A stretch of DNA of 64,000 nt from positions 12,010 to 76,009 of the forward strand of contig JAJYLN010000010.1 in assembly GCA_021787665.1 (NCBI GenBank), given 5' to 3'. Source of the DNA: a bacterium (GTDB lineage: Bacteria; JAMCPX01). A program made the position numbers and the translations under genes. Positions within the stretch are counted from its first letter, which is position 1. Every line of letters begins with the position of its first letter. The notes under the pieces are model-generated. The model had not been told where the DNA came from and did no database searches. It worked only from the letters and a program-made list of their open reading frames with translations. Positions 3,579-12,976 of this stretch are shown here, one piece after another.

Positions 3579-4643
3579 ATGTCTGATACAGAAACGAACA
3601 ATGAGACTAAGAACCAGGAGCAAGGCCCTCAGCCGAAGGATCGGACGACCTTTATCGTCCTGTCGAGCGTGCTGCTTGTCGTCGTGGTGGTTGCGGGCGT
3701 GCTGCTGTGGAAGACCAATATACTGAAAACGGGGCCAAAGCCTCTCGCACTCATCAGCGGGACCGGGCCTGCCATCATCATAGGCAATAAGACCATTTCC
3801 AAGGCAGAGCTGAACAGACAGATCAATCTTCAGGTCGCCCTGCTCAAGCAGTTCTTCGCCACACAGGGGAAACCCTTCGATCCCTACAGCAAGGCGAACG
3901 CCCGGATAATTGACCAATTGAAGCAGAACGTGATCCAGGGGCTTGTGACCTTGACCCTGCTCGTAGACTATGCAAAGCAGAAGGGCATTACCGTAAGTGA
4001 TGCGGAGGTAAACGCCACGCTCTCTGGACTCGAACAGAGGTTCGGCAAAGACAAATTCTCTGCCGTACTGAAAGAGTCAGGGATGACCATGGACGAGATC
4101 AAGCAGCAGATCAAGGCCCAGCTCATAGCGAAGGACATATTTACCGGTCTGGAGAAGGCGGTGAAGGTTACCGACGCGGATGAGAAGGCGTTCTACAACC
4201 AGCACAAGGACCAGTTCAATGTGCCCGAGGAGGTCAACGCGCGGCACATACTGGTCAAGACAAGGGCAGAGGCGGAAAAGATCGAGGGGCAGCTCAAGGC
4301 GGGCAAGTCCTTTACCGAGCTTGCGATGAAGGACTCCATTGACAAGGCAAGCGCTACGAAGGGTGGAGAGCTCGGATTCTTCAGCGCGAAACAGATGGTG
4401 CCGGCGTTCTCGAAAGCGGCGTTCGCCCTCAAAAGGCCGGGACAGATCAGCCCTATTGTCCAGACGCAGTACGGCTTCCACATCATCCAGCTCATTGCGA
4501 GAAAGCCAGGCAAGGTCATGACCTTCGCCCAGATCAAGCCGCAGCTCCAGCAGATCCTCCTCCAGCAGAATACCAAGGGCAGCTTCGAGAAGCTGATCAA
4601 CGACCTGAAGGCGAAAACGAAGATTGACATTAAAGTCCAATGA
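3579..4643 (+). CDS. SurA/PrsA-like parvulin peptidyl-prolyl isomerase, membrane anchored
   Basis: 354 aa. A charged cytoplasmic N-terminus (about 22 residues) is followed by one membrane helix (about 24-46), so the rest faces the periplasm. Residues about 60-190 resemble the SurA N-terminal chaperone region; residues about 205-310 form a PpiC rotamase domain with EEVNARHILVKT, GGELGFF and TQYGFHIIQL. It probably helps periplasmic or outer-membrane proteins fold. A strong ribosome site (aaaggaggc) precedes the ATG. The helicase gene downstream starts within or just beyond its stop codon. Confidence 0.9.
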   Translation: MSDTETNNETKNQEQGPQPKDRTTFIVLSSVLLVVVVVAGVLLWKTNILKTGPKPLALISGTGPAIIIGNKTISKAELNRQINLQVALLKQFFATQGKPFDPYSKANARIIDQLKQNVIQGLVTLTLLVDYAKQKGITVSDAEVNATLSGLEQRFGKDKFSAVLKESGMTMDEIKQQIKAQLIAKDIFTGLEKAVKVTDADEKAFYNQHKDQFNVPEEVNARHILVKTRAEAEKIEGQLKAGKSFTELAMKDSIDKASATKGGELGFFSAKQMVPAFSKAAFALKRPGQISPIVQTQYGFHIIQLIARKPGKVMTFAQIKPQLQQILLQQNTKGSFEKLINDLKAKTKIDIKVQ

Positions 4644-4644
4644 T

Positions 4645-6639
4645 GTGTACAGAGAATATCTTTCCAAAGAACCTCTCAACGATCGCGGCGTAGAGTTTGA
4701 AAAAGAGCTCAACGAGGAGCAGCTTCGGGTAGTCTTCTCGGAAGGCGGCCCGTGCCTCGTCATAGCGGGCGCTGGCAGCGGCAAGACCAGGACCCTCGTT
4801 TACAGGGTAGCAAAGCTCGTGCAGGACGGCGTTCCGCCGTCCGGCATCCTGCTGGTCACTTTCACGAACAAGGCGGCGCGGGAAATGCTCTCCCGGGTTG
4901 AGAGACTTCTGTCCATCGACGAGACGGGCGCGTGGGGCGGGACGTTCCATCATATCGCGAACCTCATCCTGCGCAGGCACATAGGACTCCTTGGATTCAG
5001 GAACAACTACACGATCCTTGACGAGGAGGACCGTGGGGATCTCGTCTCTATGGCGATCACGGAGTTCAGCCTGAACGAGAACAGGCGGTTCCCCAAGCCG
5101 GCCACGGTCTCCGCTATACTCAGCCTCGCTGCCAACCTCTCGGTAGGTATCGACCGAATTGTTGCTGACAGGTTCCCGTTCATGGCAGACCTGATCGACG
5201 ACCTTATGCTGATACACGAGCATATCACGGAAAGGAAGCTCAAGCTCAATGCGCTCGACTTCGACGACCTGCTCCTGTTTCTGAAGCGGCTCCTCGTCGA
5301 GCATGACGATGTGCGGACGCACTACGTGCAGCTCTTCAGACATATCCTTGTGGACGAGTATCAGGACACGAGTAAGCTGCAGGCGGACGTCGTAGATATT
5401 CTGGTAGGCGGGCAGAGGAACATCATGGTCGTTGGCGATGATGCACAGAGCATCTACGCGTTCCGTGGCGCCAACTACGAGAATATACTCGGATTCACCG
5501 ACCGGTACCCGGACGCGGCCGTGTACAAGCTCCAGACCAACTACAGGAGCACCCAATCGATACTCGATCTCGCGAACGTGAGCATCATGAGGAACAAGAA
5601 GCAGTACCTGAAGCAACTGACGGCAACGCGGGGGACCGGAGACCTGCCCGTCATCGTACGGTGTGCCAGCACCGAGGAGCAGGCGGGCTTTATCGCAAAG
5701 CACATACTCTCCGCGGACGCTGGCCTGGACGAGATCGCCGTGCTCTACAGGTCCCACTATCATTCGATGGAGATACAGATGGAGCTGACGCGGCGCGGCA
5801 TCCCGTACGAGGTGAGATCCGGCGTGAGATTCTTCGAGCAGGCGCACATCAAAGACATCCTCAGCTTCCTGAGGTTCGTAAACAACCCCAAGGACGAGCT
5901 CGCCTTCAAGAGGGCCCTGAAGCTGTACCCGGGCATAGGCATGAAGACGGCCGCATCTCTGTGGAGCGCCTTTACCATGCAGGAGTATCGCATTCCCTCT
6001 CTCGGTGCGGACGGGATCGTTCAGGAGCTGTCTTCCAGGGCGAAAAAAACCTTCCGCGACTTCTATGGCCTCCTATTCCTGCTGGCTGAGACGGGCGCGG
6101 ACGTCGGGTCAAAGCTGCCCTCCGATATGCTGATGATGATCCTGAAGTCGGAGTACGAGGAGTATATGAAGTTCACGTACACGAACTTCGAGTCCAGACT
6201 CGAGGACATAAAGCAGTTGATAAACTATTCGACGAGGTTCAAGACCTTGACGGAGTTTCTGAGTGAGATGGCGCTCGTGGCGGTCACGGTATCTCCCGGT
6301 ACCGGGGAGAGCGAAAAGGAGCGCGTTGTCCTCTCGAGCATCCATCAGGCAAAGGGCCTGGAGTGGAAGATCGTTTTTGTCCCCTGGCTTGTTGACGGGA
6401 AGTTTCCCGTCATCAGGAGCGGCAGGAACGATCCGAGCGACGCTACGCCTGATATAGACAGCGACGCGATAGAAGAAGAAAGGAGGCTGTTTTATGTGGC
6501 TGCTACCAGGGCGAAGGACCGGCTCTACCTGTCCTATCAGGGATGGCTGCCGGATAAGGGAAGCTACCGGAATGCCCTGATAAAACCTTCGAGGTTCTTA
6601 CGGGAGTTGCCTTCCTATGCCTACGAAACACAGGAATAA
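4645..6639 (+). CDS. UvrD/Rep/PcrA-family superfamily 1 DNA helicase
   Basis: About 664 aa, all SF1A motifs present: Walker A AGAGSGKT, motif Ia TFTNKAAREM, motif II DEYQD, motif III GDDAQSIYAFRGA, motif IV NYRST, motif V HQAKGLEW and motif VI YVAATRAKDRLYLS. It should be a 3'-5' ATP-dependent helicase for repair or replication restart. It is shorter than UvrD (about 720 aa) at the C-terminus. Start codon uncertain: a TTG at 4624 would overlap the parvulin gene by 20 nt, whereas the GTG at 4645 sits just after that gene's stop and is chosen here. The family is clear; UvrD versus Rep versus PcrA is not. Confidence 0.9.
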   Translation: MYREYLSKEPLNDRGVEFEKELNEEQLRVVFSEGGPCLVIAGAGSGKTRTLVYRVAKLVQDGVPPSGILLVTFTNKAAREMLSRVERLLSIDETGAWGGTFHHIANLILRRHIGLLGFRNNYTILDEEDRGDLVSMAITEFSLNENRRFPKPATVSAILSLAANLSVGIDRIVADRFPFMADLIDDLMLIHEHITERKLKLNALDFDDLLLFLKRLLVEHDDVRTHYVQLFRHILVDEYQDTSKLQADVVDILVGGQRNIMVVGDDAQSIYAFRGANYENILGFTDRYPDAAVYKLQTNYRSTQSILDLANVSIMRNKKQYLKQLTATRGTGDLPVIVRCASTEEQAGFIAKHILSADAGLDEIAVLYRSHYHSMEIQMELTRRGIPYEVRSGVRFFEQAHIKDILSFLRFVNNPKDELAFKRALKLYPGIGMKTAASLWSAFTMQEYRIPSLGADGIVQELSSRAKKTFRDFYGLLFLLAETGADVGSKLPSDMLMMILKSEYEEYMKFTYTNFESRLEDIKQLINYSTRFKTLTEFLSEMALVAVTVSPGTGESEKERVVLSSIHQAKGLEWKIVFVPWLVDGKFPVIRSGRNDPSDATPDIDSDAIEEERRLFYVAATRAKDRLYLSYQGWLPDKGSYRNALIKPSRFLRELPSYAYETQE

Positions 6640-6643
6640 AGAC

Positions 6644-6949
6644 ATGTTCAGGATCATAAAGTACATCATCCTCCTCCTGCTCGTGATTGCGCTCATCTAT
6701 TTCCTCAGGGTGAGCTTTCGGAACAACTCGATGGAGATAAAGCTGAAGAACCCCGGGAAGATCGAGGATCTGAAGCAGCGAACGATCAAGTTAAAAAACG
6801 AGTTTGACCTGTTCAAAAAGGAAGGGGAACAAGAGACGGAAACAGCACGTGAAAGGCGTCAGGCCCCGTTTGCCGGCGCCAAGGAAAGAAGCAGGCACGG
6901 GATGGACAAAGAGGAGCTCGACAAGTTCATACGGGAGCATTCGAACTGA
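6644..6949 (+). CDS. Small single-pass membrane protein, unknown function
   Basis: About 101 aa from the ATG at 6644; an alternative ATG at 6617 would overlap the helicase by 23 nt. One membrane helix lies at residues 3-20, followed by a charged, probably coiled-coil stretch (KLKNPGKIEDLKQRTIKLKN) and a Lys/Arg/Glu-rich tail. I recognise no family. Its position right after the helicase suggests co-transcription. Coding is supported by the clean membrane helix and operon spacing, not by homology. Confidence 0.55.
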   Translation: MFRIIKYIILLLLVIALIYFLRVSFRNNSMEIKLKNPGKIEDLKQRTIKLKNEFDLFKKEGEQETETARERRQAPFAGAKERSRHGMDKEELDKFIREHSN

Positions 6950-7025
6950 GCGTATCGTGCGCGGGTTCGATTCCCTCCGATTCGTTTGACTGTTGTTTCC
7001 GCGATGTGTTACCCACAGAATTACT

Positions 7026-7241
7026 TTGTTAGGGTTTAATCTCCAAAAGGTGGCGACGGTATTCGCCCTGAGTATTGAGGCGGGACTGTCTGTGGTGGTA
7101 GGCATCTTCATTGGGTATTATGCGGACAGGTACTTCCACACGACACCGTGGCTCATGCTTGCCTGTACCGGTCTCGGCTTTGTGGCAAGTATCATGAGGC
7201 TGCTGGAGATAAGCAAGCGTATAGGATCGGATAAAAAATGA
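7026..7241 (+). CDS. atpZ: AtpZ/AtpI-type ATP synthase-associated small membrane protein
   Basis: About 71 aa. Two membrane helices flank the typical AtpZ sequence: GLSVVVGIFIGYYADRYF, then TPWLMLACTGLGFVASIMRL. Family members accompany F-type ATP synthases and may aid c-ring assembly or Mg2+ handling. The start is unresolved: in-frame TTG at 6993, TTG at 7026 and GTG at 7050 all lack a good ribosome site; 7026 gives the usual family length. It overlaps the next gene, atpI, by 4 nt (ATGA). Confidence 0.75.
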   Translation: MLGFNLQKVATVFALSIEAGLSVVVGIFIGYYADRYFHTTPWLMLACTGLGFVASIMRLLEISKRIGSDKK

Positions 7242-7600
7242 ATCGCAAGGTATACAGGGTATGGACCGTTGCTGCGGCTCTGATCTTCTTTGCGGGGATT
7301 CTGCTGTTTGCGGCACACGGGGCCGATATCGTGTCATTCGTGGCAGGTGCCGGCATAGCGGCCGCGAACGTGCTGCTGCTCGGCAAGGGCGTGGCGGCGC
7401 TGTTCGGTTACACCGGGAAAAAAGCAGTCTACCTGTTTCTCCTGGTACTAAAATATGCATTTTTGTTGACAACACTTTATATAGCAATGGTAATAGTCAA
7501 GGTGAACCCTGTACCGTTTGTGTCTGGCATAACGGTACTGCCGCTGAGCAGCATGGCGATGGCGGTTTTTATGATGGTAAGGAGAGATGACGATGCATGA
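7238..7600 (+). CDS. atpI: ATP synthase subunit I family protein
   Basis: 120 aa with four predicted membrane helices and the short charged C-terminus (RRDDDA) seen in ATP-synt_I proteins. Located between atpZ and atpB, overlapping the first by 4 nt and the second by 14 nt, the conserved place for this subunit. Subunit I is not part of the catalytic complex; it assists assembly of the c-ring in several bacteria. Identification rests on topology, length and context more than on sequence motifs, because this family is poorly conserved. Confidence 0.75.
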   Translation: MNRKVYRVWTVAAALIFFAGILLFAAHGADIVSFVAGAGIAAANVLLLGKGVAALFGYTGKKAVYLFLLVLKYAFLLTTLYIAMVIVKVNPVPFVSGITVLPLSSMAMAVFMMVRRDDDA

Positions 7601-8294
7601 GCAATTGACATGGTTTAGCTTTATACCCGGATTACGGGACGTACCCAGCTACATGATAACATACCCTTTGACGGGCATGGTGCTGATTGTTTGCGCTCTG
7701 CTTGTCTCCAGGACGCTAAGGCGCAGGAACTACCCGGAAGTGCCTGATGAAGGGTTGACACTATCCTCGCTGTTCGATAGCATCTACGAGGCATTGTACA
7801 ACTTTACTGCCTCGGTCATTCCGGATGAGCCGGAGAGATACCTGCCCTTGATCGGTACCCTGTTTATACTGATATTTTTCTCAAACCTATGGGGCGTAAT
7901 ACCGGGGATGGCCCCTCCTACGGACAAGCTCGACACCAATGTTGCCATGGCGTTAACGGTATTTATGGCCTATAACTACTACGGGTTCAGGTCGCACGGG
8001 ATAAAGTATTTGAAGCATTTTATGGGGCCCATATGGTGGCTTGCACCTATCATGGTGGTCGTGGAGCTTATCAGCAATGCGGTCAGACCCGTATCTCTTT
8101 CCCTCAGGCTTTTCGGGAACATGCTCGGCGACCATACGGTACTTGGCATCTTCTCACACCTGCTCCCGATAATTGTTCCCATATTTTTTATGGCGCTCGG
8201 CATATTCGTGTCTTTTATTCAGGCTCTGATATTTTCGATACTAAGTGCAATTTACATCGCACTTGCAGTGGCACACGAAGAAGAAGAACATTAA
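7587..8294 (+). CDS. atpB: F0F1 ATP synthase subunit a
   Basis: 235 aa, five to six membrane helices. The signature around the essential stator arginine, [14 protein letters not shown] (about residues 168-181), is intact, as is the C-terminal helix with [20 protein letters not shown]. Subunit a carries the two ion half-channels and faces the c-ring. An ATG at 7587, inside the end of atpI, starts the gene; a second ATG two codons later is also possible. Co-transcribed with atpE, which follows after 20 nt with a strong ribosome site. Confidence 0.97.
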
Positions 8295-8314
8295 CTATAA
8301 AAGGAGGATTGAGG

Positions 8315-8644
8315 ATGGTGAGAAAGTTTTTGAGTATGGCTGCATCAACGATACTGCTGGTGCTGACAGCAATCCCTGCTTTCGCTGAGGCTACACCTGC
8401 CCAGGCACAGGGAACGGACGTTAAAGGGTGGCTCGCTATTGCGGCTGGCATAGGTATAGGCATAGCCGCGTTCGGCGGAGCACTCGGTCAGGGCAGGGCG
8501 ATCGCTGCTGCACTCGATGGGATAGCGAGAAACCCCGGGGCATCAGGTAAGATTGTGACGCCAATGATTATCGGTCTTGCCCTTGTAGAGTCCCTCGTTA
8601 TCTACGCCTTTGTCATAGCATTCTTGCTTCAAGGGAAGATATAG
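8315..8644 (+). CDS. atpE: F0F1 ATP synthase subunit c with signal-like N-terminus
   Basis: 109 aa, longer than the usual 75-90. The extra N-terminus (residues 1-25, ending AIPAFAEA) looks like a cleavable signal peptide. Two hairpin helices follow: helix 1 with [10 protein letters not shown] (Gln59), the polar loop ARNPGASGK, and helix 2 with ALVESLVIY carrying the ion-binding Glu92. Gln59, Glu92, Ser93 and Tyr97 have the same spacing as the Na+-site residues of Ilyobacter tartaricus (Gln32, Glu65, Ser66, Tyr70). The ATG at 8315 is preceded by aaggagg; upstream in-frame codons lie inside atpB and are not used. Confidence 0.95.
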
Positions 8645-8650
8645 TTGCAG

Positions 8651-8690
8651 GGGCGGGCGAAGGATTGCTGGGTGCCCGCCCTTTCCTTTT
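8651..8690 (+). terminator. Rho-independent terminator after atpE
   Basis: A perfect 8-bp stem GGGCGGGC (8651-8658) with GCCCGCCC (8674-8681), followed by tttccttttacctttt. It begins 7 nt after the atpE stop and closes the F0 operon, so the F1 genes are not immediately downstream. Confidence 0.85.
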
Positions 8691-8870
8691 ACCTTTTTAA
8701 CCAATAATGAGTCATCCTTTAATGATAAGGTTGGGTGAAAATGCGCACTATCTGTAGGCCTGTGGGTTAAAACACCCATACTGCCACCTTGGCACACGCC
8801 GTGGCCCTGATGTGTCACCGCGGTAACCTGGCATGATTCCTGATTAATTAATTATCTAAGGACATAAAAC

Positions 8871-9584
8871 ATGACAAATAGCGTTAAGTATTTGGCTATA
8901 CTGATGATGCTGGCACTGTACCCTGCCACGGGGTACGCTAAACAGAGCGCGTGTGTGGTCTGCCACAGCTCAATCTCTCAGGAAAAGGACAAGACCGTTA
9001 TGGACTGCTGGCTGCGCTCCATCCACAGACAGAACGGCGTGACGTGCGATGCGTGTCATGCGGGTAACCCGGACGTCCATGTGGGCAGTATAAAAGGCAT
9101 CTCGGCCAAACAGTTCGAAGCCTTAAAGTCGCTTTCCATGTCCAGGGCCAAAGGGTTCATCGGTATTCCCTCGCCTATGCAGATGTTCGATATGTGCGGC
9201 CAGTGTCACAGTGATTCGGTAAACCGGTACAAGGGCAGTATCATGGGCATCGCATTCCTCAATAAGAAGGGCGGCCCTTCCTGCACGGACTGTCATTCAG
9301 CACACTATGTCATCATCCCGGATGTCCCCAAGACGTGCGAGAAGTGTCACAAGGATACGACCGGGTTCGACCAGATAGACCCCATGAACGTCAACGATGC
9401 AACGGTAACAGAGCTCTCGAGGCTCAGAATAAAGATCGCCGAGGAGAAAATAAAGGGCAAAGAGCCACCCCTCTTTCCCGAAGAGCTGGGCTCGTTCCAG
9501 ATTGGGTTCGTGGCGTTCGGTGCTATTATTGTATTGTTCATCATCGCGTATATCCTGTACCTATTGATTGAGAGAAGGAGGTAA
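8871..9584 (+). CDS. Pentahaem c-type cytochrome with C-terminal membrane anchor
   Basis: 237 aa. A signal peptide (residues 1-23, ending TGYA) directs export. Five CxxCH haem-attachment sites are visible in order: CVVCH, CDACH, CGQCH, CTDCH and CEKCH. A C-terminal membrane helix (about residues 207-231) ends in ERRR, so the haem domain faces the periplasm and is anchored at its C-terminus. First gene of a five-gene run with a two-helix protein, Rieske protein, cytochrome b and a second pentahaem cytochrome, which indicates an electron-transfer role in a quinol-oxidising complex. Weak ribosome site (aaggac) before the ATG. Confidence 0.92.
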   Translation: MTNSVKYLAILMMLALYPATGYAKQSACVVCHSSISQEKDKTVMDCWLRSIHRQNGVTCDACHAGNPDVHVGSIKGISAKQFEALKSLSMSRAKGFIGIPSPMQMFDMCGQCHSDSVNRYKGSIMGIAFLNKKGGPSCTDCHSAHYVIIPDVPKTCEKCHKDTTGFDQIDPMNVNDATVTELSRLRIKIAEEKIKGKEPPLFPEELGSFQIGFVAFGAIIVLFIIAYILYLLIERRR

Positions 9585-9586
9585 CG

Positions 9587-9850
9587 ATGGGCTTTGAAGT
9601 CATCAACAGCAAAAGACCGTCCTATGCTATGGCAGCGGCCGTAGCCATAACGCTCCTGTCCGTCCTATCCCTCTGCATCAGCGTGCTGTTCGCCTATCTC
9701 TTCATAACGGGAAAGGGAAACAATCTGATAATGGGCACGATGGTCTCGGCGGAGTTTCTGATAGCGGCAGCCGTCGTCACGCTCTATATTCGGTATTTCC
9801 TCGAGTTCAGGGAGGTCTCCGAAGACAGAGAGGAGGAATTGCTATGGTAA
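9587..9850 (+). CDS. Two-helix membrane protein of the cytochrome b6/Rieske operon, unknown family
   Basis: 87 aa, two membrane helices (about residues 15-41 and 48-71) with a short GKGNN turn between them and an acidic C-terminus (REVSEDREEELLW). No cofactor motif is visible. It has its own strong ribosome site (agaaggagg), starts 2 nt after the cytochrome gene stop and overlaps the Rieske gene by 7 nt. Its place suggests a small structural subunit of the complex; I do not recognise the family. Confidence 0.8.
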   Translation: MGFEVINSKRPSYAMAAAVAITLLSVLSLCISVLFAYLFITGKGNNLIMGTMVSAEFLIAAAVVTLYIRYFLEFREVSEDREEELLW

Positions 9851-10464
9851 ACGAACCCGGAAAAACGGCGGACAGAGGGAACGAAACGGGCATAACGAGG
9901 AGACGGTTCATCCTGGGGACGATCGTCGTCGCCGTGATCGGCGCTTTCGGATCGCTGTTATCCATGCTGAAGCTGCTCTCGCCTTCAAAGAAGGGCAGCG
10001 GGTATATGTCCACTATCGCCCCGGGCGACGTCCTCGTCTATGCAGCGGGCAGCAATATCGGTACAGAGATAAAGGCAAGCTCGCTCAACGTCGGGGATGC
10101 CGAGCTCGTGTATCCAAAAGGCAAGTCATCGAATCCTGCAAACCTCGTACAATTGATAAAGCTGAACGAAGTGGACTTCAAGAAGCCGACCGACAGGAAG
10201 CTCACCGATAAAGGCTTCCTTGCCTACAGCGCCATATGCACGCACCTCGGCTGTACGGTCTCCTGGGTAAAGAATCCTGCCTCACCGGACTTATCCTACA
10301 CCGAGTGCTTCTGCCATAACAGTATCTTTAACCCCGCACGGGGGGAGATCGTCGAAGGCGGGCCAGCACCCATACCGCTCGCACAGATAGGGGTAAGGGT
10401 GAACGAAAACGATACGATCGTCTTCACCGGCACTTTTACGGGCCCGATCGGCCCACAGGTCTGA
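9844..10464 (+). CDS. Rieske [2Fe-2S] iron-sulfur protein with Tat-type N-terminus
   Basis: 206 aa. ITRRRFILG (residues 17-25) followed by a hydrophobic helix is a twin-arginine signal-anchor, as in bc1/b6f Rieske proteins that export folded. Cluster ligands are complete: box 1 CTHLGC (residues 132-137) gives Cys132 and His134 plus the disulfide Cys137; box 2 CFCH (155-158) gives Cys155 and His158 plus the disulfide Cys157. It would pass electrons from the Qo site of the downstream cytochrome b to the pentahaem cytochromes. Overlaps the preceding small gene by 7 nt; cytochrome b follows after 18 nt with a gggaaagggga ribosome site. Confidence 0.95.
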   Translation: MVNEPGKTADRGNETGITRRRFILGTIVVAVIGAFGSLLSMLKLLSPSKKGSGYMSTIAPGDVLVYAAGSNIGTEIKASSLNVGDAELVYPKGKSSNPANLVQLIKLNEVDFKKPTDRKLTDKGFLAYSAICTHLGCTVSWVKNPASPDLSYTECFCHNSIFNPARGEIVEGGPAPIPLAQIGVRVNENDTIVFTGTFTGPIGPQV

Positions 10465-10482
10465 GGGAAAGGGGAGCATACG

Positions 10483-11721
10483 ATGTTTTCATGGCTTGAC
10501 GAGAGACTCGAACTGAAAAAATTCAAGGAAAAGTTTTTGTCCAAGACCTTCCCGACGCACCCGACATTCCTGATCGGAGAGATAGCCCTGTTCTCCTTCA
10601 TCATACTCATCGTGACGGGAATATTCCTCGGCCTGCTCTACGAGCCGTCGACAAAGGCGGTCTCGCTGTTCGGTGCCATGGTTCCGGCGGCCTATGCGAG
10701 CGTGGTCAGAATAGATCTGATGTCCATGGGCATGCTCGTGCGACGCATCCACCACTGGAGCGCTATGATCATGATAGCTGCCGTGCTCGTCCACCTCATG
10801 AGGGTCTACTTTACGTCAGCGTACAGGAACCCCAGGGAGATAAACTGGTTCATCGGACTCGCCCTGTTCGGGATCTCGCTGTTCGCCGCGTTCACCGGCT
10901 ACCTGCTCCCGTACAGCAATTTCTCGGTGACCGCGACATCCATAGGATACTATATCGCAAAATCCGTGCCTTGGATCGGTAACTGGGTATCCAGACTCCT
11001 CTTTGCCGGGGACTTCCCCTCGAATGCAACGGTACCGCGATTCTTCTTCCTCCATGTTATGTTCATTCCGGTACTGCTCCTCGGCCTCATCGGGCTGCAC
11101 ATGGTCGTCCTGGTAAAACAGAAGCACACGGAACCGTCCTCCAATGAGGGAAGGCCGGAGGCGAAGCATGGAAAGCGCCTCATCGGCATACCTATCTGGC
11201 CGGAGCAGGCGCTCATCAGCACCGTATTCTTCTTCTTCCTGATCTTTATGGTCGTCCTGATAGCGACCTACATACCTTTAAACCCCATCGAAACCTATGG
11301 ACCGCCTTCCCCCGGAACACCCGTGATGAGACCGGACTGGTATTTTCTCGTCGTATACGGGTTCCTGAAGCTCATACCCGGCAATCTCTCGTTTTCCATT
11401 TTGGGGGGCAAGATTACGCCGGAGACCATCGGTGGAGTCATCTTCCCGACGTTTTTGATTCTCGTGTTTTTGCTCGTGCCACTGATAGACAGGGCGAAAG
11501 GGCCGCAGCACTACATCGTCAACCCCCTCCGGAGGCCCTTCATGACCTCGTTCGGTGTCACCGGCGGTGTCTTTCTGACCATGCTGGTAGTGTCGGGGTA
11601 TATCGACGTCCTCCATATCAAGCCGAAGACGATGATCGTCTACGTCGTCCTTGCGACAGCCATTGCCGCGGTCGTCTCGTACACGCTGCTCAGGCTCTAC
11701 AATAAAAAAGGGGAGGGATAA
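10483..11721 (+). CDS. Cytochrome b, b6-type haem spacing fused to a subunit IV-like half
   Basis: 412 aa, eight or so membrane helices. The four b-haem histidines read as His90/His104 in helix B (14 apart) and His191/His206 in helix D (15 apart); the 14/15 pattern is that of cytochrome b6, whereas bc1 cytochrome b has 14/14. The C-terminal half corresponds to subunit IV and holds the Qo motif as PDWY (284-287) rather than PEWY. No cysteine is seen near the N-terminal first helix where b6 attaches haem ci. Quinol oxidation at Qo and reduction at Qi are expected. The central gene of the five-gene operon. Confidence 0.95.
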   Translation: MFSWLDERLELKKFKEKFLSKTFPTHPTFLIGEIALFSFIILIVTGIFLGLLYEPSTKAVSLFGAMVPAAYASVVRIDLMSMGMLVRRIHHWSAMIMIAAVLVHLMRVYFTSAYRNPREINWFIGLALFGISLFAAFTGYLLPYSNFSVTATSIGYYIAKSVPWIGNWVSRLLFAGDFPSNATVPRFFFLHVMFIPVLLLGLIGLHMVVLVKQKHTEPSSNEGRPEAKHGKRLIGIPIWPEQALISTVFFFFLIFMVVLIATYIPLNPIETYGPPSPGTPVMRPDWYFLVVYGFLKLIPGNLSFSILGGKITPETIGGVIFPTFLILVFLLVPLIDRAKGPQHYIVNPLRRPFMTSFGVTGGVFLTMLVVSGYIDVLHIKPKTMIVYVVLATAIAAVVSYTLLRLYNKKGEG

Positions 11722-11722
11722 C

Positions 11723-12460
11723 ATGATGAGGTCCAGGTTTGCCGCAGTATTGTTCATGGTGGCTGCAACGTCTGTTTTTGGGGCACCGTCTGCCTTTGCC
11801 GTAAATTCGTGTGTCAGATGTCACTCCGCTCTTACCGGACAGAGCTTTGTAGGGACGAAATCGCATAGCTGGAAGGGCTCCGTACATCAAGAGCACGGCG
11901 TGACCTGTGATAAATGTCACGGAGGAGACCCGAAAGCAGTCATGGAGAAGCTTGCGCACATCGGCGTCTTCAGCTCGAGCAACCCGGACAGCAAGGTTTA
12001 CTACAAGAATATCCCTTCGACGTGCGGCAAATGTCATGGTGCGGAGTTCTATAAGTTTACACAAAGCTACCACTACAAAAAACTCGAGTCGACCGGACAG
12101 GGCCCCAATTGTGTGACATGCCACGGATCCATGGTGACGACGATCCTGAATCCGAACGATATGGCAAGCGTATGCGACCGGTGTCACAATAACAGGATGG
12201 GTGTCCTCCCCTACATACCCAAGAAAGCAAAGGCCGTACTTCTCCTCCTCCAGCAGGGGAACCTGCTCATGAAGGCCGACGGGAAACTCTACACCTCAAA
12301 GGCTGATGAGAAAGTACTCAGCGCGGCACGAGCAGACCTATCCTCGGCACGAATGGAATGGCATACCTTCGACCTCGACGTCATCGTCAAGGATTTAGAG
12401 GGAGCATACAACAACTTCCAGAAGCTGCCGGCACAGAGGCATGTACCAAAACAACAGTAA
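11723..12460 (+). CDS. Periplasmic pentahaem c-type cytochrome
   Basis: 245 aa from the ATG at 11723; a second ATG follows at once, at 11726. Signal peptide (about residues 1-25, ending SAFA), then five CxxCH sites: CVRCH, CDKCH, CGKCH, CVTCH and CDRCH, then a haem-free helical C-terminus (LLLLQQGNLLMKADGKLY and following). It lacks a C-terminal membrane anchor, unlike the first cytochrome of the operon. It starts 1 nt after the cytochrome b stop, behind ggggaggg. It is a likely soluble or subunit-bound electron acceptor of the b6/Rieske core. Confidence 0.92.
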   Translation: MMRSRFAAVLFMVAATSVFGAPSAFAVNSCVRCHSALTGQSFVGTKSHSWKGSVHQEHGVTCDKCHGGDPKAVMEKLAHIGVFSSSNPDSKVYYKNIPSTCGKCHGAEFYKFTQSYHYKKLESTGQGPNCVTCHGSMVTTILNPNDMASVCDRCHNNRMGVLPYIPKKAKAVLLLLQQGNLLMKADGKLYTSKADEKVLSAARADLSSARMEWHTFDLDVIVKDLEGAYNNFQKLPAQRHVPKQQ

Positions 12461-12502: not shown

Positions 12503-12976
12503 TTAATAGGACTTGTTTATCTCTTCCTTCCTGAGGATTTGCACGATGTCCATATGCTTTTCCCCTGCTGCCCATGACAGGGCACTGTCTCCGTACTTAT
12601 CAATGACATTGATAGAGGCACCGTGCCGTATCAGGAGCTTAACCGTGTCTATGTGGCCGCTGTACGCCGCAAGCATCAGCGCTGTCTGGCCATCGTTGTT
12701 CTTAACGTTCGGATCCATACCCGCCTGAAGGAACAGCGCAACGACCTTCGTGTTGCCCTCCTTTGCGCTGGTGAGGAATTGCTTCTGGGTGTACGGTACG
12801 TTCAGGGTGGTCAGCTCCCGGCGCGCACTGCCCTGACTTTTGGTGCAGCCTATCAGGGGAATCAGCACGAAGATAAGCGAAAGCATGATCGCAAGGCGAA
12901 ACACCGCTGTTGGTTGCCACGTATACCCGGTCATGTCCGCGGGTCCCATGAAAGATACAGTATCTTTTTGTTTCAT
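12503..12976 (-). CDS. Ankyrin-repeat lipoprotein
   Basis: 157 aa. A hydrophobic segment (about residues 27-43) ends in a lipobox LIGC (Cys44), preceded by an unusually long hydrophilic N-terminus of about 25 residues; in-frame ATGs at codons 10 and 15 are alternatives, but the best ribosome site (aaggggggc) precedes codon 1. The mature part holds about three ankyrin units: KVVALFLQAGMDPNVKNNDG, TALMLAAYSGHIDTVKLLI and SALSWAAGEKHMDIVQIL. A periplasmic protein-protein interaction role is likely. Convergent with the cytochrome operon. Confidence 0.85.
   Translation of the reverse strand: MKQKDTVSFMGPADMTGYTWQPTAVFRLAIMLSLIFVLIPLIGCTKSQGSARRELTTLNVPYTQKQFLTSAKEGNTKVVALFLQAGMDPNVKNNDGQTALMLAAYSGHIDTVKLLIRHGASINVIDKYGDSALSWAAGEKHMDIVQILRKEEINKSY

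Follow-up and report, generated by a model that had tools for sequence, protein, structure and literature searches.

Complexes in which a Rieske protein and a cytochrome b are combined with multihaem cytochromes are already known, and pentahaem cytochromes c beside a Rieske/cytochrome b operon have been published for archaea. The Methanoperedens cluster MPEBLZ_00816-00823, reported in 2015, includes two pentahaem cytochromes and the hypothetical protein MPEBLZ_00819, and menaquinol was proposed as its electron donor (Arshad et al., PMC4683180). The anammox complexes Kustd1480-1485 and Kuste4569-4574 combine a cytochrome of the b6/subunit IV type, which carries haem cN, with hexa- and octahaem proteins and a subunit that is an NAD(P) oxidoreductase (PMC12954380). 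In actinobacteria, the Rieske protein QcrA has three helices; the second and third flank a twin-arginine motif, and the loop contains a conserved Glu and Arg-His (PMC5449189). Here we describe a bacterial operon at positions 8871-12460 of a 64,000-nucleotide stretch (hereafter, the window) of contig JAJYLN010000010.1, from lineage JAMCPX01. Its five genes, all on one strand, encode a membrane-anchored pentahaem cytochrome c (PHCm), a two-helix protein, a Rieske protein, a fused cytochrome b, and a soluble pentahaem cytochrome c (PHCs) (Table 1). We consider it reasonably likely that its product is a proton-pumping, membrane-bound menaquinol:multihaem-cytochrome c oxidoreductase that runs a Q cycle and has a Rieske anchor split between two chains. 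The new elements are the bacterial family with the PDWY motif, the proposed split-Rieske assignment with its translational coupling, and the apparent sharing of a pentahaem module by two cytochrome b lineages. We found no description of the bacterial operon in the open-access literature; subscription papers were outside this search, so priority is unproven.

The ten CxxCH motifs of the operon are located at residues 28, 59, 109, 138, and 156 of PHCm and at residues 30, 62, 101, 130, and 151 of PHCs. The PHCs start was set at the ATG at 11723, rather than at the TTG at 11651 given in the raw list of open reading frames (ORFs), because only the former places the signal peptide at the N-terminus. 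The cytochrome b has histidine pairs at residues 90/104 (spacing 14) and 191/206 (spacing 15), the PDWY motif at residues 284-287, and no Cys in the entire chain. A preliminary description of the locus had listed the same five contiguous genes, the 14/15 spacing, the fused subunit IV half, PDWY, the missing haem-ci Cys, and ten CxxCH motifs, all of which we confirmed from the ORFs and motifs. Its suggestion of a ten-haem exit that replaces cytochrome c1 or f also gains support, given the two pentahaem cytochromes and the lack of a c1 or f gene in the operon. PHCm is the proposed electron acceptor of the Rieske protein, in place of c1/f, and PHCs the proposed second exit carrier.

Table 1. Genes of the Rieske/cytochrome b operon (window coordinates)
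Feature	Coordinates	Strand	Description
PHCm	8871..9584	+	pentahaem cytochrome c, 237 aa; signal peptide; one C-terminal transmembrane helix
Two-helix protein (DUF7318-like)	9587..9850	+	87 aa; two predicted helices; ends in REVSEDREEELLW
Rieske [2Fe-2S] protein	9844..10464	+	twin-arginine ITRRRF signal/anchor; CTHLGC...CFCHNS
Cytochrome b, fused	10483..11721	+	412 aa; subunit IV half in the same chain
PHCs	11723..12460	+	exported pentahaem cytochrome c, 245 aa; signal peptide; no C-terminal membrane helix

The operon is present in 6 of the 9 genomes examined from the window's own phylum, all from one family, and a single scan of named species genomes identified 33 further loci (L026-L058) with cytochromes b 67-90% identical to that of the window; the next matches drop sharply, to 49%. 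According to the record titles, these loci belong to Nitrospirae/Nitrospirota, Deltaproteobacteria, Syntrophobacteraceae, Acidobacteriota, and Deferribacteres, and nearly all come from metagenome bins. The order PHCm, 87-aa two-helix protein, Rieske protein, cytochrome b is invariant across the 33 loci, which, together with the occurrence in the window's own phylum, argues that the operon is not a chance arrangement. The position of PHCs varies: it follows cytochrome b on the same strand in 25 of the 33 loci, lies after the operon on the opposite strand in L047, L051, and L052, is not adjacent in L038, L054, and L057, and is lost at a contig end in L055 and L058. The 87-aa protein was found in 16 of the 395 genomes of the phylum of one Nitrospirae locus, in each case with an E-value of 6e-39 or better, and the operon is therefore patchily distributed. 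In L036, the operon occurs twice in tandem (3965-7577 and 7905-10778) with identical match scores, either through recent duplication or as an assembly artefact. The finding is real and fairly widespread, and broader than a description made from one stretch of sequence could show.

The phylogeny of cytochrome b sets this family apart. In a tree of 65 sequences, the 33 sampled cytochromes b of the window type form a single clade (support 100/99), nested within a larger clade (100/99) that also includes those of Gemmatimonadota (L059, L060), haloarchaea, and actinobacteria (QcrB). The larger clade, in which the branching order is weakly supported (86/52), excludes four proteobacterial cytochromes b of the bc1 type as well as the second cytochrome b of the window genome itself. 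PDWY is present in all 34 window-type proteins, compared to PDWF in most haloarchaea, PEWY in three of the four proteobacterial sequences, and PVWY in the remaining one, from Legionella. The preliminary description had called the complex b6-type on the strength of the 14/15 spacing; this assignment proved wrong, because the same spacing is common to haloarchaeal and actinobacterial cytochromes b and so does not mark b6 identity, and the best family matches of the cytochrome b and Rieske proteins are the actinobacterial QcrB and QcrA. An ordinary bc1 complex with c1 is ruled out by the tree and the lack of a c1 gene in the operon, and b6f by the missing haem-ci Cys, the fused chain, and the lack of a cytochrome f-like gene. 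By these comparisons, the window cytochrome b is neither of the c1-type bc1 kind nor b6f, and belongs to a clade of its own.

The closest counterpart with a solved structure is the actinobacterial QcrCAB complex, the bcc part of the bcc-aa3 supercomplex: the nearest solved cytochrome b is that of the Corynebacterium bcc (7q21_B, E 7.6e-59), and several actinobacterial members share PDWY. The window operon differs in having two pentahaem cytochromes instead of the dihaem QcrC, and in a Rieske anchor apparently encoded by two genes, which together would correspond to QcrA, rather than by one three-helix chain; a further difference is that no haem-copper oxidase was found in the window genome. 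Haloarchaeal clusters, some of them beside molybdopterin oxidoreductases, have cytochromes b 38-47% identical to that of the window and, directly before the Rieske gene, encode a DUF7318-like protein with two C-terminal helices. Unlike the window operon, the two annotated haloarchaeal plasmid loci have a molybdopterin oxidoreductase as the neighbour and no adjacent pentahaem cytochromes.

The two-helix protein, which the preliminary description had left without a known role, now has a candidate counterpart in the actinobacterial Rieske protein and among the DUF7318-like proteins of haloarchaea. All 34 members are 87 aa long and form a gapless alignment, in which REVSEDREEELLW or a near-identical sequence is the C-terminus of most. 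Pfam DUF7318, for which we found no describing paper in the open-access literature, matches 32 of them (E up to 1), with the window copy above the cut-off (9e-7). Of the 87 columns of the family profile, 77 are covered by the match to the haloarchaeal protein encoded just before the Rieske gene (E 4.6e-6) and 66 by the match to an archaeal protein of about 90 aa in the same place (E 1.3e-5). Compared with helices 1-2 of QcrA, the bacterial profile alone yields an E-value of 1.2e-4, and a profile merging bacterial, haloarchaeal, and Gemmatimonadota sequences yields a probability of 94.5 and an E-value of 7.7e-8 over 110 columns, whereas decoys (reversed sequences and cytochrome b) reach a probability of 51 at most. 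The loop after helix 2 is also alike in the three groups (FREVSEDR in bacteria, PHVEVAERR in haloarchaea, and IPEEISIQERH in QcrA), and the alignment of the window Rieske protein with its best NCBIfam match, actinobacterial QcrA, is confined to positions 115-316 of the 319-position model. In 32 of 33 loci, the two-helix gene ends in a stop codon that overlaps the start of the Rieske gene (ATGGTAR in 29, GTGGTAG in 3), which partly accounts for the invariant terminal Leu-Trp. Taken together, the overlap and the profile match suggest that the two-helix protein is probably the split-off front half (helices 1-2) of an actinobacterial-type Rieske protein, with the anchor made as two chains. In the Gemmatimonadota-type loci L059 and L060 (about 6350-7388 and 6340-7350), the two helices form the C-terminus of a DOMON-domain protein encoded directly before the Rieske gene.

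By hhalign, PHCm and PHCs are homologues of each other (probability 99.8, E 1.5e-29). The conserved candidate distal haem ligands are H52, M90, M125, H145, and M172 in PHCm and H48, H55, H79, H117, and H214 in PHCs, and at two aligned places, His in PHCs (79, 117) corresponds to invariant Met in PHCm (90, 125). This substitution may point to higher-potential haems in PHCm. The pentahaem tree joins PHCs to the Gemmatimonadota-type copies and sets PHCm apart as a family of its own; the archaeal copies likewise form their own group. A PDB sequence search with PHCm returned nothing useful. The AlphaFold2 models are of medium quality (mean pLDDT 79 for PHCm and 74 for PHCs), and Foldseek searches with both produced no match below E 0.001. 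In VIA-align, the PHCm model bore a weak resemblance to the group of hydrazine dehydrogenase, HAO, and NrfB (best Z 6.3 over 120 residues, rmsd 2.5) and the PHCs model was matched only via its C-terminal three-helix bundle; we make no fold claim for either.

Homologues of PHCs are found in 5 of the 392 genomes of the sampled archaeal phylum (phmmer E down to 1e-47, profile E down to 1e-54). At five archaeal loci (L143, L146, L149-L151), an adjacent pentahaem pair accompanies a protein with one or two haems, a two-helix protein, and a Rieske protein, along with, where the contig is complete, a split b6 and subunit IV with YCLGG and PEWY; by gene order, which matches the arrangement reported by Arshad et al., these loci are Methanoperedens-like. 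The Methanoperedens type thus shares with the window operon the two pentahaem cytochromes, the small two-helix protein directly before the Rieske gene, and menaquinol as the proposed donor. It differs in being archaeal and in its split b6/subunit IV with a haem-ci Cys and PEWY and its extra mono- or dihaem membrane cytochrome, whereas the window operon combines a fused PDWY cytochrome b of another lineage with a separate, C-terminally anchored PHCm family. Given that PHCs homologues adjoin cytochromes b of the YCLGG/PEWY type in archaea, the exit module appears to be common to complexes whose cytochromes b differ. At archaeal loci L144, L145, L147, L148, and L151, PHCs homologues adjoin NrfD-type proteins with 9-10 helices, Tat FeS proteins, and cytochromes with 12 haems, an arrangement that would fit a pentahaem module used by several quinol-oxidizing complexes.

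The gene content of the window genome, which is 93% complete, fits an anaerobic menaquinone chain that would end in multihaem cytochromes. The genome contains two menaquinone genes of the MqnA/MqnD family (futalosine pathway) and many cytochromes with 7-17 haems; no match to COX1 (haem-copper oxidase) and no DsrA (dissimilatory sulfite reductase) above the cut-off were found in it, and the bd-oxidase-like match, to PF01654, is weak (L170, 4954-6477; 29 bits over 224 positions; one CxxCH motif). Elsewhere in this genome, locus L163 (4562-12597) encodes 17-, 9-, 7-, and 11-haem cytochromes and a four-helix cytochrome-b561-like protein, a possible periplasmic or extracellular electron outlet.

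In the proposed mechanism, menaquinol would be oxidized at the PDWY Qo site, with one electron passing via haems bL and bH to the Qi site and the other from the Rieske cluster to PHCm, PHCs, large multihaem cytochromes, and finally an anaerobic acceptor. The three-helix Rieske anchor would come in two parts, with the two-helix protein as the Sec-inserted part on its own polypeptide, and the overlapping start codon would couple its translation to that of the Rieske gene. The b-haem ligands, the Rieske motif, and the menaquinone genes are all present, and Q-cycle activity is predicted from sequence only. The menaquinol-type complex suggested by the preliminary description is supported by the conserved gene order, the placement of cytochrome b outside the c1-type bc1 group, and the menaquinone genes. 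PDWY is reported in menaquinol-using lineages; no papers on PDWY/PEWY were found in the open-access literature.

Several points weigh against this interpretation. The Rieske partner cytochrome, the nature of the final acceptor, and the assembly of all five products in one complex are predictions from sequence, and neither the QcrA nor the QcrB match comes up to its curated NCBIfam cut-off (for QcrB_actin, the window cytochrome b scores 300.9 bits against 500). Furthermore, in the subclade comprising L047, L051, L052, L054, and L057, PHCs is unlinked or on the opposite strand and could therefore act as a diffusible partner instead of a subunit. The core might then consist only of PHCm, the small protein, Rieske, and cytochrome b, with PHCs, which has no membrane anchor, as a soluble periplasmic shuttle analogous to cytochrome c2/c6; the archaeal homologues beside NrfD-type complexes are what a general adaptor would show, but the collinearity of PHCs in most loci and the two adjacent pentahaem genes in the archaeal Rieske/b clusters make this arrangement unlikely, if by no means negligible. 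The two-helix protein, for its part, could be an unrelated accessory or assembly subunit (like PetG/L/M/N) with only a general membrane-helix likeness to QcrA. Indeed, the match is remote: the bacterial family alone attains a probability of only 56 against QcrA, the reversed QcrA decoy attains 51 against the merged profile, and a PDB profile search with the family retrieved no QcrA chain and nothing useful. However, the fixed place just before the Rieske gene in bacteria and archaea, the common loop, the E-value beyond that of the decoys, and the conserved stop/start overlap render this explanation rather improbable.

The complex could also run in reverse: electrons drawn from donors in the periplasm, such as Fe(II) or sulfur compounds, via multihaem cytochromes would reduce menaquinone, a reaction driven by the proton-motive force. 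Iron oxidizers are known to run bc1 backwards, the window genome is rich in multihaem cytochromes, and many relatives are metagenome bins with names suggesting mine-drainage sediment and hydrothermal samples. Nevertheless, with no haem-copper oxidase found and only the weak bd-like match, the genome offers no obvious high-potential sink, and we regard this direction of electron flow as very unlikely.

In most multihaem respiratory exits, those of the NapC/CymA type, quinol oxidation is not coupled to energy conservation. If the forward menaquinol-oxidizing scheme is correct, a Rieske/b complex that feeds multihaem cytochromes directly would be an energy-conserving entry to multihaem or extracellular respiration in uncultured anaerobes. 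A split Rieske protein would, moreover, naturally keep apart the Sec and Tat steps, which actinobacteria combine in one chain, making the question of Rieske assembly directly testable, and a pentahaem module on two cytochrome b lineages would bear on subunit exchange among such complexes. More tentatively, and at somewhat less than an even chance, these loci could represent a family of menaquinol oxidoreductases with two translationally coupled Rieske-anchor chains (Sec and Tat) and a pentahaem exit shared with archaeal methanotrophs and set on two cytochrome b lineages, wiring the Q cycle to multihaem or extracellular electron transfer.

The window genome has a second Rieske/b cluster, outside the window (L169, 4255-9708), which consists of a monohaem cytochrome c, a 649-aa NAD(P)H/FeS flavoprotein, a Rieske protein, a cytochrome b with APWY, and a pentahaem cytochrome c. 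It is this cluster, and not the window operon, that resembles the anammox complexes with their NAD(P) oxidoreductase; the window operon shares with them the use of multihaem cytochromes instead of cytochrome f, but not the b6/subunit IV with haem cN, the NAD(P) oxidoreductase subunit, or the hexa- and octahaem proteins (PMC12954380). Directly upstream of the window operon, on the same strand, lie ATP synthase F0 genes (6993-8644). Downstream, an ankyrin-repeat lipoprotein gene (12503-12976, minus strand) is convergent with the operon, and similar ORFs with a lipobox are found at the corresponding position in three relatives from the family (L004, L006, and L007).

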